A DNA stretch of 36,394 nt from NCBI GenBank assembly GCA_946616305.1, contig CAMOIV010000004.1, positions 1 through 36,394 of the forward strand, in the 5' to 3' direction. Below, piece by piece: positions 4,706 to 34,301 of the stretch (position 1 is its first letter; each line of letters starts with the position of its first letter). The translations under genes were made by a program, and so were the position numbers. Below the pieces are notes generated by a model, which saw nothing but the letters and a program-made list of their open reading frames with translations, ran no database searches and was not told where the DNA came from. Origin of the DNA: an uncultured Lachnospiraceae bacterium (GTDB lineage Bacteria; Bacillota; Clostridia; Lachnospirales; Lachnospiraceae).

Positions 4706-6094
4706 ATGAAGATATCCAAAAGGATGCTGAAGTATGCAAGGGAGAACTACAATGAGGTAAAGCATACCACTCTGAACCCCGAAGGGCCGGGCGTGGTGAG
4801 GATACATCTCGTGCCTCCAAAGGTTACGGATGATGACATAGGACCCTCTGTGGTCATACTCAACGGGCAGGATATAGTCCCTCTGGATGTATCCTGGACC
4901 ATATTAATGTGCGAATTCATATCCGAAGTGAATAAATACAGCGGCCGGGAGGTTAATGAGGCCGAGGTAGCGCAGATTATAAAGGACACCTGCCGGAGAA
5001 TGAGGAAGATATATCCCCTGATACCCGGCAGATACTTTATTTCCGACATAGATACCATCATGACCACCTTCAAGCAGATCGCTTACCGTGAGAAGGTGAC
5101 CGAGGACATCCCATACATGAGCCTTGGCGAATATGCTCCATACATGAGGGCGCCTCACAGGATGGATCTGATGGTATCGGCCATGACAAAGGATGATAAA
5201 TGGCACTGCAATCTGAAGTGCCTTCACTGCTATGCGGCAGGACAGCAGCATTCGGGTGAGACCGAGCTTGATACCGAAGACTGGAAGAAGATCATGGACA
5301 AGCTTAAGGAGGCCTGTGTACCTCAGATCACCTTCACGGGAGGAGAGCCTACCATGAGGGAGGATCTCTGCGAACTCATAGAGTACGGGGAGTGGTTCAT
5401 CACCAGACTCAACACCAACGGAGTGAAGCTTACGAAGGAATACTGCCATGCCTTAAAAGCAGCGTCCCTGGACAGCATACAGATAACACTGTATTCGGGA
5501 GACAAGGATATACACAACAGGCTGGTGGGAGCAGAAGGGCATGAAATGAGTGTTTCGGGGATAAAGAATGCTCTGGAGCTTGGTATGAGCGTCAGCGTCA
5601 ATACCCCTCTTTGTACTCTGAATGAAGACTATGTATCCACCCTGAAGTTCCTTCACGATCTTGGGGTCACCTATGTTACCTGTTCGGGGCTTATCACCAC
5701 GGGGAATGCGAAAAAGGACGAGTCCGTATCGCTGCAGCTTAGCCGTGAGCGTATCGGTGAGATACTTAAGGACGCAGTGAGATACTGCAATGAGAATGCC
5801 ATGGAGATAAGCTTTACTTCTCCGGGCTGGGTTGATGACAGTCTGTGTGAGGAGCTTGGAATAAATACTCCCACCTGTGGTGCATGCCTTTCAAATATGG
5901 CCGTAACCCCCGGGGGCAAAGTTGTTCCCTGTCAGAGCTGGCTTGAGGGTGAGGCATTGGGTGACATGCTCCATGACGACTGGGAGAAGATATGGGATGA
6001 TCCCGATTGCATTAAGAGGCGGGAATACTCGGCACTTATGCTTGGCACCTGCCCCTTAAGGCAGAGTGCACCTCATGAAAAGGAGGTGGGATAA
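4706..6094 (+). CDS. Radical SAM/SPASM-like peptide maturase with RRE-like N-terminal domain
   Basis: A 462-residue protein. Residues about 55-120 (PSVVILNGQDIVPLDVSW, then a helical stretch) resemble the PqqD/RRE fold that binds precursor peptides; this is inference from pattern. The radical SAM core starts with Cys168, Cys172 and Cys175 in CNLKCLHCYA (CX3CX2C for a 4Fe-4S cluster), followed by FTGGEPTMRED. The C-terminus has a SPASM/twitch-like cysteine set: Cys391, Cys394, Cys409, Cys435 and Cys449. Such enzymes install thioether or other crosslinks in ribosomal peptides. The next gene starts 1 nt later and encodes a Cys-Ala-rich tail, the obvious candidate substrate. The start at 4706 is chosen because of AAAGGAAG upstream; an earlier GTG overlapping capG has no ribosome site. 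A specific named subfamily is not recognised. Confidence 0.88.
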   Translation: MKISKRMLKYARENYNEVKHTTLNPEGPGVVRIHLVPPKVTDDDIGPSVVILNGQDIVPLDVSWTILMCEFISEVNKYSGREVNEAEVAQIIKDTCRRMRKIYPLIPGRYFISDIDTIMTTFKQIAYREKVTEDIPYMSLGEYAPYMRAPHRMDLMVSAMTKDDKWHCNLKCLHCYAAGQQHSGETELDTEDWKKIMDKLKEACVPQITFTGGEPTMREDLCELIEYGEWFITRLNTNGVKLTKEYCHALKAASLDSIQITLYSGDKDIHNRLVGAEGHEMSVSGIKNALELGMSVSVNTPLCTLNEDYVSTLKFLHDLGVTYVTCSGLITTGNAKKDESVSLQLSRERIGEILKDAVRYCNENAMEISFTSPGWVDDSLCEELGINTPTCGACLSNMAVTPGGKVVPCQSWLEGEALGDMLHDDWEKIWDDPDCIKRREYSALMLGTCPLRQSAPHEKEVG

Positions 6095-6095
6095 G

Positions 6096-7319
6096 ATGAG
6101 ATACAGGATAACAGGTATCGTATCAAGGCTTCTGGCAGCAGTATTTATTATCCTTGCAGCCACCTTTACGGTGTCGGAGGTTACATATGCCGCTCCTCTT
6201 GACGAGATACTGGTTTATGATATAACGGCCAAGGTACAGGATGATGCCACGGTGAAGCTTACCTATCATATAGAATGGAAGGTTCTGGACTCCGATTCGG
6301 AGGGCCCGCTGTCCTGGGTCAAGGTGGGCATACCCAACAAACACTACGGCGAGGTACTGGGCCTGACCGACAATATCAAGTCCATCGGATACAGCTCTGA
6401 CGGCGGAAGCTATATGAGGATCGATTTTGACAGAGACTATTACGAGGGCGAGGTCATAGTATTCGAGTTCAGCGTGGTACAGGATTATATGTACCAGGTG
6501 GACAAGCTGGAGGAGGGATATACGGTATATACCTTCACTCCCGGATGGTTCGATGATATCACCGTGGATCATATGACACTCAGGTGGAATGCTGACAAGG
6601 TGGAGAGCTTTGATCCGGCTTGCTATACCCTGGTGGGCAATCTGGTATGGATGGAGGATGATATGCCTCCGGGAGAAAAGTTTACCATCAATGTGACCTA
6701 TCCCAATGACGCCTATGGCTTTGATCTCTCCAAGAAGACAGAGGAGCCGGAGGAGGACGACGATTGGATCTACTACCTTATAGGAGCGATAGTATGTCTT
6801 ATCGTCCCCGGCGGAATGGTGATGACCATTATCGGGGTCATCAGCACGGCTATATACAATGCCTTTGCTGCCTTCGGACCAAAGGAGAAGAAGATCACCA
6901 GGACCAAGATAGTCTATTTCGATTCCTGTCCCGGATGCGGAGCTCCCAGAGGAGAGGGCAAGACAAAGTGCGAATTCTGCGGCAGGGATCTTGTAAAGAG
7001 CAAAGAGGTTATAGAGGAGAAGGATATCAAGGGCAAGGAGAAGGAGGCTGCGAAATTTGTCAAAGAGGGCGAATTCCGGTATACGGCAGATCCGAACACA
7101 TTCATCAATGTCCATGTGGTCCCTGTACCCCGTCCCCGTAGGTCATATAGTTCGAGAGGCAGCTCGGGACGCTCGCACCACAGTTCCTGTGCTCACAGCT
7201 CCTGCGCCTGTGCATGTGCCTGCGCCTGTGCCGGAGGAGGCAGGGCAGGGTGTTCTGCAAAGGATTTCTATAAGACTAACTTAAGACTCAGATTCCTTGG
7301 GAAACATAAGGGAATATAA
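6096..7319 (+). CDS. DUF2207-like membrane protein with zinc ribbon and C-terminal Cys-Ala repeat
   Basis: A 407-residue protein in clear segments. Residues 1-31 are a signal peptide (likely cleaved or anchored near VTYA). Residues about 32-215 form an extracytoplasmic beta-rich region resembling DUF2207. Hydrophobic residues about 225-250 span the membrane and are followed by a basic, therefore probably cytosolic, stretch. A zinc ribbon follows (Cys278, Cys281, Cys292, Cys295), then a charged linker. A Ser/His/Gly segment leads into Cys365, five Cys-Ala units (Cys370, 372, 374, 376, 378), GGGRAG, Cys386 and SAKDFY. Ordinary DUF2207 proteins end in glycine-rich tails, so this Cys tail is distinctive. 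AAAGGAGG precedes the ATG, and the radical SAM stop is 1 nt upstream, so tight co-expression is expected. The tail is the likely target of the radical SAM enzyme. Confidence 0.85.
   Translation: MRYRITGIVSRLLAAVFIILAATFTVSEVTYAAPLDEILVYDITAKVQDDATVKLTYHIEWKVLDSDSEGPLSWVKVGIPNKHYGEVLGLTDNIKSIGYSSDGGSYMRIDFDRDYYEGEVIVFEFSVVQDYMYQVDKLEEGYTVYTFTPGWFDDITVDHMTLRWNADKVESFDPACYTLVGNLVWMEDDMPPGEKFTINVTYPNDAYGFDLSKKTEEPEEDDDWIYYLIGAIVCLIVPGGMVMTIIGVISTAIYNAFAAFGPKEKKITRTKIVYFDSCPGCGAPRGEGKTKCEFCGRDLVKSKEVIEEKDIKGKEKEAAKFVKEGEFRYTADPNTFINVHVVPVPRPRRSYSSRGSSGRSHHSSCAHSSCACACACACAGGGRAGCSAKDFYKTNLRLRFLGKHKGI
7188..7253 (+). repeat. Cys-Ala repeat segment (coding)
   Basis: This stretch encodes seven cysteines within 22 residues: Cys, Ala-His-Ser-Ser, five Cys-Ala pairs, Gly-Gly-Gly-Arg-Ala-Gly, Cys. 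The five pairs use mixed codons (TGC GCC, TGT GCA, TGT GCC, TGC GCC, TGT GCC), so the repeat is kept at protein level and is not a simple expanding DNA microsatellite. Confidence 0.9.
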
Positions 7320-33320: not shown

Positions 33321-34301
33321 ATGATCGGTAAAATAATAATAACAACCCCATCAGTTGTTGCTGCAGCGTTTTTAATAGATGTTATTGTTGGTGATCCGGT
33401 GGTGCTGCCACACCCTGTGAGGCTGATAGGAAAACTCATATTATTTTTGGAACACATACTATATATTGATCATGATGAGGAAAAACAATTCAGGAGAGGG
33501 ATCTGTCTCACCCTCACGGTCATCATCACTTCAATGGTGACTACAGCACTGTTATTATTTGCAGCTTTCAGTATAAATTTCTGGCTGGGAACAATATTAC
33601 GGGTGATATTATGCACCTACTGCATCGCAGCCTGCGATCTGAAAAGGTCAGCCATGAAAGTATACCGTGCATGCAAAGATAACGATATCGATCTGGCCAG
33701 ATCCATGGTGTCCCGGATCGTAGGCAGGGACACGGATAAACTGAATATGGAGGGTGTTATTAAAGCGGCTGTGGAGAGTGTGGCGGAGAGTACCTGTGAC
33801 GGGGTGATAGCACCTGTGATTTATATGCTGCTTTTTGGCGCCACGGGTGGAATAACATATAAGGCGATCAATACTCTGGATTCCATGACAGGTTATCATA
33901 ACGATAGATACGAATACTTCGGGAAGGCCTCTGCGATAACGGATGATATAGCCAATTTTATACCATCCAGGGTCAGTGCGGTGTTGATCATCATCTCTTC
34001 CGCCATACTACATCTTGATTTTCGCAATGCTGTTATCATATGGAAAAGAGACAGGCGCAATCATAAGAGCCCGAATTCGGCCCAAACGGAGAGTGCAATT
34101 TCAGGTGCATTGGATATCCGGCTGGGAGGACCCGCTTTTTATTTTGGAAAAGCGGAAAATAAACCTTTTATCGGAGACGAAAAAAGAACTATATGTTGTG
34201 ATGACATTTTAATTTCATGCCGTATAATGTATTTTGCAGCAATTCTTGCAATAATACCAGGTATCTTATTCTTGCCGTATGCTATATACTATTTACTATG
34301 A
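33321..34301 (+). CDS. cbiB: Adenosylcobinamide-phosphate synthase CbiB/CobD
   Basis: A 326-residue membrane protein with five or so hydrophobic segments. GDPVVLPHPVRLIG near the start, ESVAESTCDGVIAPVIY, YKAINTLDSMTGY, IPSR and HKSPNSAQTESA are the family signatures. It attaches the aminopropanol (phosphate) arm to adenosylcobyrate in cobalamin synthesis. No other cobalamin gene is in the window. Its codons are visibly richer in A and T than those of both neighbours, suggesting a separate origin. It overlaps the acyltransferase gene by 4 nt. Confidence 0.93.
   Translation: MIGKIIITTPSVVAAAFLIDVIVGDPVVLPHPVRLIGKLILFLEHILYIDHDEEKQFRRGICLTLTVIITSMVTTALLLFAAFSINFWLGTILRVILCTYCIAACDLKRSAMKVYRACKDNDIDLARSMVSRIVGRDTDKLNMEGVIKAAVESVAESTCDGVIAPVIYMLLFGATGGITYKAINTLDSMTGYHNDRYEYFGKASAITDDIANFIPSRVSAVLIIISSAILHLDFRNAVIIWKRDRRNHKSPNSAQTESAISGALDIRLGGPAFYFGKAENKPFIGDEKRTICCDDILISCRIMYFAAILAIIPGILFLPYAIYYLL

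Follow-up and report, generated by a model that had tools for sequence, protein, structure and literature searches.

Radical S-adenosylmethionine (SAM) enzymes that mature peptides mostly act on short substrates which are then exported. The known substrates of sactipeptide maturases are short secreted peptides, and the SCIFF/ranthipeptide maturases, which carry a full SPASM domain, have a short, Cys-rich precursor peptide as partner. In the His-Xaa-Ser system (HxsC, HxsA), a radical SAM enzyme has been proposed to act on the C-terminal repeat of a protein. Here we analyse a gene pair in a 36,394-nucleotide stretch of DNA from an uncultured Lachnospiraceae bacterium (contig CAMOIV010000004.1), referred to as the window. 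One gene encodes a radical SAM enzyme and the other, directly downstream, a membrane protein with a tail of Cys-Ala repeats. The two proteins occur almost exclusively together, and the tail is probably the substrate of the enzyme.

An enzyme which is directed to a repeat and makes cyclopropylglycine is known, and repeated Asp-Cys motifs in precursors encoded beside radical SAM genes represent a related but different case (PMC9062424). SPASM and Twitch enzymes perform varied chemistry; among them SkfB, which forms thioethers, combines a recognition element (RRE) for ribosomally synthesized and post-translationally modified peptides (RiPPs) with a Twitch domain (PMC6231123). A search of the open-access literature, with subscription papers and preprints outside its range, found no description of the enzyme–tail pair.

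The radical SAM enzyme and its relatives

The enzyme gene (4706–6094; plus strand, as for all features below) encodes 462 residues with Pfam matches to Radical_SAM (9.8e-23) and, at residues 391–439, to SPASM (3.3e-5). As the initial annotation had proposed, it contains a CX3CX2C motif (Cys-168, Cys-172 and Cys-175; 5207–5230), which is present in all 46 enzymes of the family alignment; together with the core domain, this places the protein in the radical SAM superfamily. The extra set of C-terminal cysteines noted at the same time was also recovered: Cys-391, Cys-394, Cys-409, Cys-435 and Cys-449 (5876–6052), the Twitch/SPASM cysteines, are conserved in 46, 40, 46, 41 and 44 of the 46 sequences, respectively. 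The first SPASM motif (CX9-15GX4C) is found in each of these 46 enzymes, which form the window's clade. The motif for the second cluster (CX2CX5CX3C) occurs in none of them, so that they do not qualify as full SPASM proteins. Having CX9-15GX4C and later cysteines without the second-cluster motif, the enzymes of this clade are classed, by motif, as Twitch-type.

Among solved structures, the best profile match of the enzyme is SkfB (3.7e-22, residues 166–434). With the sactipeptide maturases SkfB, AlbA and StsB and their gene clusters, the pair shares the radical SAM core, a Twitch/SPASM C-terminus, an additional N-terminal domain and a cysteine-rich neighbour; it differs in that this neighbour is a membrane protein and in that no exporter or protease was generally seen beside it among the flanking genes compared. 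A short cysteine-rich precursor peptide, as expected for sactipeptide and ranthipeptide systems, is replaced by a partner of 407 residues. SCIFF/ranthipeptide maturases, which we take to be of the CteB type, could be aligned by hhalign over the whole enzyme (99.4% probability), but the window's clade differs from them by the absence of CX2CX5CX3C (0 of 46).

As none of the best 25 of 65 NCBIfam matches of the enzyme reaches its cut-off, the enzyme was not assigned to any named NCBIfam family. The best scores in this set of 25 belong to NirJ2 and other enzymes of heme or molybdopterin synthesis. The heme-pathway enzymes NirJ2, AhbC and AhbD gave 107.8 of 500, 92.9 of 650 and 92 of 500, about a fifth or less of what is required. 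HxsC scored 56.4 against a cut-off of 267.9, and the tail has no His-Xaa-Ser repeat. A prokaryotic viperin was considered and set aside: the padloc profile pVip (1.8e-16) covers residues 167–306 only, which is the shared core, and the NCBIfam viperin family gave 50.2 of 180. The nearness in sequence to enzymes of the NirJ/Ahb/MoaA type could mean that the substrate is a small molecule, with the membrane protein merely anchoring the enzyme or sensing its product. We regard this as improbable: pathway genes, including those of NirJ2, AhbC and AhbD, are not widely shared among the neighbourhoods of the pair, and a simple anchor would not require a conserved tail.

The Cys-Ala tail and its co-occurrence with the enzyme

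The stop codon of the enzyme gene ends at 6094 and the ATG of the membrane-protein gene (6096–7319) follows after one base, in agreement with the earlier description of a 407-residue membrane protein starting one nucleotide after the enzyme. A plausible ribosome-binding site for the latter gene, AAGGAGG, lies within the enzyme gene (6080–6086). The protein begins with a signal-peptide-like stretch (hydrophobic segment of residues 3–33, probably a signal peptide; 6102–6194). An outer domain, roughly 190 residues long, comes next, followed by an internal transmembrane segment (residues 224–254; 6765–6857), a zinc-ribbon-like motif CPGC...CEFC (residues 278–295; 6927–6980), a linker rich in Ser and His, and the tail. 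Each of the four cysteines of the zinc-ribbon-like motif is present in 39 of 61 relatives. From hydropathy and flanking charge alone (acidic residues before the internal segment, basic residues after it), the N-terminal domain is predicted to be outside the cell and the tail in the cytosol. One N-terminal and one internal segment were found in 44 of 60 relatives with at least 300 residues; 11 have two internal segments, four have two N-terminal ones and one lacks the N-terminal segment. In one relative (L064), it is the Cys-Ala repeat that accounts for the second internal segment. Profile comparison of the membrane protein with solved structures revealed nothing significant (best E 0.29). The DUF2207 membrane proteins, presumably similar in layout, show weak similarity at the N-terminus (14.1 bits, with the gathering score set at 24.4), and the protein was thus not included in that family.

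The tail, CAHSSCACACACACAGGGRAGCSAKDFY, is located near the C-terminus and is followed by 15 more residues. The proposed modification site and recognition motif comprises residues 365–389 (7188–7262), with five CA pairs (370–379), GGGRAG and Cys-386, and a further CA at 365–366. All elements that had been listed initially (five Cys-Ala pairs, GGGRAG and one more Cys) are present; the statement that the protein ends with them has to be modified, as 21 residues follow Cys-386. When the whole protein was used as query against 397 genomes of the same family, all 27 homologues, none of them selected by the tail, were found to carry it in the form of four to six CA pairs in a row, then GG or SS, GRAGC and [ST]xK. 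The open reading frames (ORFs) of these proteins are 311–495 residues long, and identity to the membrane protein of the window, in the best segments, is 35–66% outside the window's own genome.

A DNA scan for CACACAxxGRAGC in a collection where 84,980 species are represented by a single genome each yielded at least 119 stretches holding 121 tails, corresponding to about 120 genes (the tail in L178 seems to belong to the distal part of the gene that is interrupted by the contig end in L171). In the fetched loci, the tail core is encoded by 141 distinct DNA versions but only four peptides, the search pattern having fixed 11 of 13 residues so that just two free positions inform on the constancy of the peptide. 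The [ST]xK following GRAGC is outside the search pattern and is present in 120 of the 121 listed tails, the exception being L171, where the contig ends right after GRAGC. The membrane-protein alignment (A2) was chosen by the tail, and its invariance there is partly by construction. The tail is not a chance sequence. Selection acts on the tail peptide, on the cysteines and the GRAGC-xxK end alike. An artefact of repeats at the DNA level was rejected, as the peptide stays constant in spite of differing codons. The pattern of conservation suggests a reaction segment joined to a recognition segment.

Clear homologues of the membrane protein and of the enzyme are present in the same 27 of the 397 family genomes and, by coordinates, are adjacent in all 27. 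No genome of this set contains a clear homologue of only one of them. The E-value lines for this count (1e-20 for the membrane protein, 1e-80 for the enzyme) were set after the match lists had been seen; they fall into gaps from 2.8e-27 to 2.9e-6 and from 9.1e-125 to 2.1e-26, respectively, apart from one genome (G355) in which parts of the enzyme gene lie on two different contigs, one piece matching at 4.9e-86. When weaker radical SAM matches are counted as well, the total rises to 387 of the 397 genomes at E 0.001, in line with the large size of this superfamily. Eleven further genomes match the membrane protein weakly, mostly over the zinc-ribbon region. Among 398 genomes of the phylum, the enzyme profile (E ≤ 1e-80) and the membrane-protein profile (E ≤ 1e-15) matched the same 11 genomes. 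One of these is the window's own genome, and the other ten represent a distant clade with both matches adjoining.

An enzyme of the family was found within 1.5 kb of 99 of the 121 listed tails. The remaining 22 include 21 at the edge of the fetched stretch, and whole-genome searches detected the enzyme in the genomes of 13 of 15 and of five of seven of these tails; these 18 tails are credited by a genome-wide match, with adjacency not examined singly. Three tails (L097, L151 and L156) are located at contig ends in genomes where no enzyme was found, that of L097 having one weak general radical SAM match. The tail protein in L091 (3628–4437), encoded in the interior of a contig of 489 kb and next to a large protein with repeats, is missing its usual N-terminal part. 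It is the sole demonstrable orphan among the listed tails and looks like a gene remnant. With 117 of the 121 listed tails having the enzyme nearby or in the genome, the tail family is not widespread without a linked radical SAM gene, and the dedicated pairing assumed in the initial annotation is strongly supported by the identical sets of 27 and 11 genomes.

The association of the two genes is thus genuine, is found in many genomes and has hardly any exceptions, which is not explained by their being neighbours by chance. The orphan in L091 would fit two genes that are mere neighbours without functional relation. This is very hard to reconcile with identical presence sets in two genome samples, with the reversed gene order in two loci (L070 and L100) and with the very different backgrounds of the pair, the G+C content ranging from 27 to 67% in the nine loci measured.

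In the distant clade, the first SPASM motif is found in ten of ten enzymes and the full second-cluster motif CX2CX5CX3C in nine of ten. The tail has the form C[AYH]CVSCACACVSCACACACAGG[RG]GAGC[AT]xKF and is complete in eight of the ten cases, one being cut by the contig end within the repeat and one being masked. As this clade has its own set of SPASM motifs and its own tail variant, enzyme and tail have diverged together. The second auxiliary cluster was either lost in the window's clade or gained in the distant one. For the distant-clade enzyme, StsB and AlbA are also among the best 25 of 51 NCBIfam matches, none of which reaches its cut-off. In three distant-clade loci (L243, L244 and L245), the frame of the tail protein stays open well beyond the Cys-Ala tail; the extension in L243 is a TPM domain (Pfam, 3.7e-7), and those in L244 and L245 are alike by eye.

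Gene arrangement, neighbourhood and distribution

Gene arrangement was surveyed in 80 of the 119 listed stretches. The usual order is enzyme followed by tail protein, often with a four-base overlap according to automatic start choice. In L069 (2004–6117), two tail proteins are encoded divergently on either side of one radical SAM gene, and the same holds for the contig common to L080 (5485–6744) and L084 (328–1581). Two tail proteins around one enzyme are expected if one enzyme can serve several substrates, and in these contigs the enzyme may indeed serve two.

Flanking genes were compared for the window and the same 80 loci, using 242 ORFs chosen by length. They came from 65 neighbourhoods, those of the window and of 64 loci, out of 81 sequences. 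Similar flanking genes are shared by five of the 65 neighbourhoods at most. Ten clusters with members from at least three loci were obtained, most of which reflect synteny confined to a few loci or reading frames on the strand opposite to the pair; the members identified include ABC transporter, polyprenyl synthetase, histidine kinase and amylase genes. The largest real group is an ABC transporter ATPase in the related loci L069, L076, L080, L104 and L131, accompanied in four of them by a permease of the MacB/FtsX type.

In the window, the pair is followed by a polysaccharide locus (7445–32543) with genes for a NeuB-type synthase, a cytidylyltransferase, WbsX and other glycosyltransferases and a protein resembling polysaccharide transporters. 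It also contains SIS, GHMP kinase and nucleotidyltransferase genes, presumably of the heptose type, and a CobD/CbiB gene comes next at 33321. The original placement of the pair inside a capsule locus thus describes the window correctly but does not hold for the pair in general. Since flanking genes are common to no more than five of the 65 neighbourhoods, the polysaccharide setting is incidental, and a capsule-specific role was rejected. An origin from phages or plasmids was also rejected: no plasmid match was obtained at 1e-30, and viral contigs yielded 17 loci with partial radical SAM matches (22–38%).

The hosts of the 80 listed loci are mainly Lachnospiraceae, unclassified Clostridia and Oscillospiraceae, in addition to single assemblies of Acholeplasmatales, Anaeroplasma and Bacilli and two of Eggerthellaceae. 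The pair in the assemblies labelled Eggerthellaceae (Actinomycetota; L127, 4330–7040, and L095, 4391–7068) lies in a background of 58–61% G+C. The tail ORF of L095 has a length of just 148 residues and is apart from the enzyme. Transfer between phyla and mislabelled contigs are both possible sources of these occurrences. Named isolates with the pair are Gemmiger formicilis ATCC 27749 (L079, genome G398) and Hungatella hathewayi WAL-18680 (L139, genome G410).

Proposed modification of the tail

We consider it probable that the two genes form a self-contained enzyme–substrate pair in which the enzyme modifies the tail. No other general substrate is on offer, as no third gene is found in more than five of the 65 neighbourhoods. 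The N-terminal domain of the membrane protein would face the exterior of the cell and the tail the cytosol, where the enzyme would bind the conserved GRAGC-[ST]-x-K end and use the 5'-deoxyadenosyl radical to modify the adjoining Cys-Ala repeats. The most likely products would be thioether cross-links from cysteine sulphur to backbone or side-chain carbons of tail residues. This chemistry is favoured by the high density of cysteines together with the SkfB-like build of the enzyme, and we rate it as close to an even prospect. The modified tail would probably remain on the membrane protein, neither cut off nor exported, because no gene for an exporter or protease was generally seen with the pair among the flanking ORFs compared.

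Binding of the tail might involve the N-terminal domain of the enzyme (residues 1–165; 4706–5200), which is kept within the family and in which His-20, Pro-25, Gly-29, Arg-32, Pro-37, Asn-53, Gly-54 and Pro-59 are invariant in the 46 enzymes. It has no Pfam match up to E = 1. Comparison with the PqqD alignment by hhalign gave a probability of 14–15% with residues 92–124 aligned; the score of 22.4 was not attained in any of 100 column shuffles (maximum 16.0), a test that took in three of the ten distant-clade N-termini. By hhalign, the domain on its own could not be aligned to seven radical SAM proteins that carry a PqqD-like domain at the N-terminus. Proteins of this kind had surfaced in the PqqD search and were used for comparison (L210, L213, L214, L217, L218 and L224); we take them to be SCIFF-maturase-like. 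The RRE-like N-terminus postulated initially is therefore backed by a score above all shuffles but not by the low probability and the failed alignments, and its identity as an RRE is suggestive.

The nature of the tail leaves room for a different role. Spacing of the type CxCxCxC resembles metal-binding sequences, a zinc ribbon is also present in 39 of 61 family members, and the closest NCBIfam families include small-molecule enzymes. The tail could thus be a metal-binding or Fe–S/redox module which serves the enzyme unmodified, for example as a membrane-bound electron donor or cluster carrier. We think this unlikely: it requires a third substrate, yet no other gene exceeds five of the 65 neighbourhoods; Fe–S carriers normally serve many enzymes, whereas the tail is found with one enzyme family; and the flanking GRAGC[ST]xK is as fixed as the cysteines.

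Modification of the tail might also proceed by other radical chemistry, such as epimerisation, carbon–carbon linkage or cysteine oxidation. This is a branch of the proposed modification rather than a separate explanation, and its likelihood, which we judge to be rather low, overlaps with that of the whole. The varied chemistry of SPASM/Twitch enzymes (PMC6231123) and the repeat-directed enzyme making cyclopropylglycine (PMC9062424) are in its favour. Nothing specific contradicts it, although the cysteine density would favour sulphur chemistry.

Several observations weigh against tail modification by the enzyme. Enzymes for small molecules (NirJ2, MoaA and AhbC) are among the best NCBIfam matches, all well under their cut-offs, and Cys-x-Cys repeats also suit metal binding. 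An RRE on the enzyme is not established (15% probability over residues 92–124 in the PqqD comparison). No enzyme was found in the genomes of the three tails at contig ends, and the tail in L091 has no enzyme match in its genome (E ≤ 1e-5), though its gene is without the 5' part. Unlike in a typical RiPP cluster, no exporter or protease is generally found beside the pair among the 242 flanking ORFs, which were not annotated singly; a MacB-type ABC transporter downstream in L069, L076, L080, L104 and L131 leaves export possible there.

As a tentative proposal to which we give somewhat less than an even chance, the pair may represent a class of protein modification not described before. The enzyme would build several rings, probably of the polythioether type, on the cytosolic tail of a membrane protein that stays in place without being cleaved, and the product would be a permanent part of a signalling or envelope protein instead of a secreted peptide. 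This modification would be distributed across gut Bacillota and, apparently, some Actinomycetota. A role of the modified protein in sensing or in the envelope is our guess. The presence of the pair in isolates of G. formicilis and H. hathewayi makes the proposal directly testable. If it is true, the Cys-Ala tail would be a new and very recognisable target motif, and an enzyme dedicated to it would extend radical SAM chemistry to resident membrane proteins.

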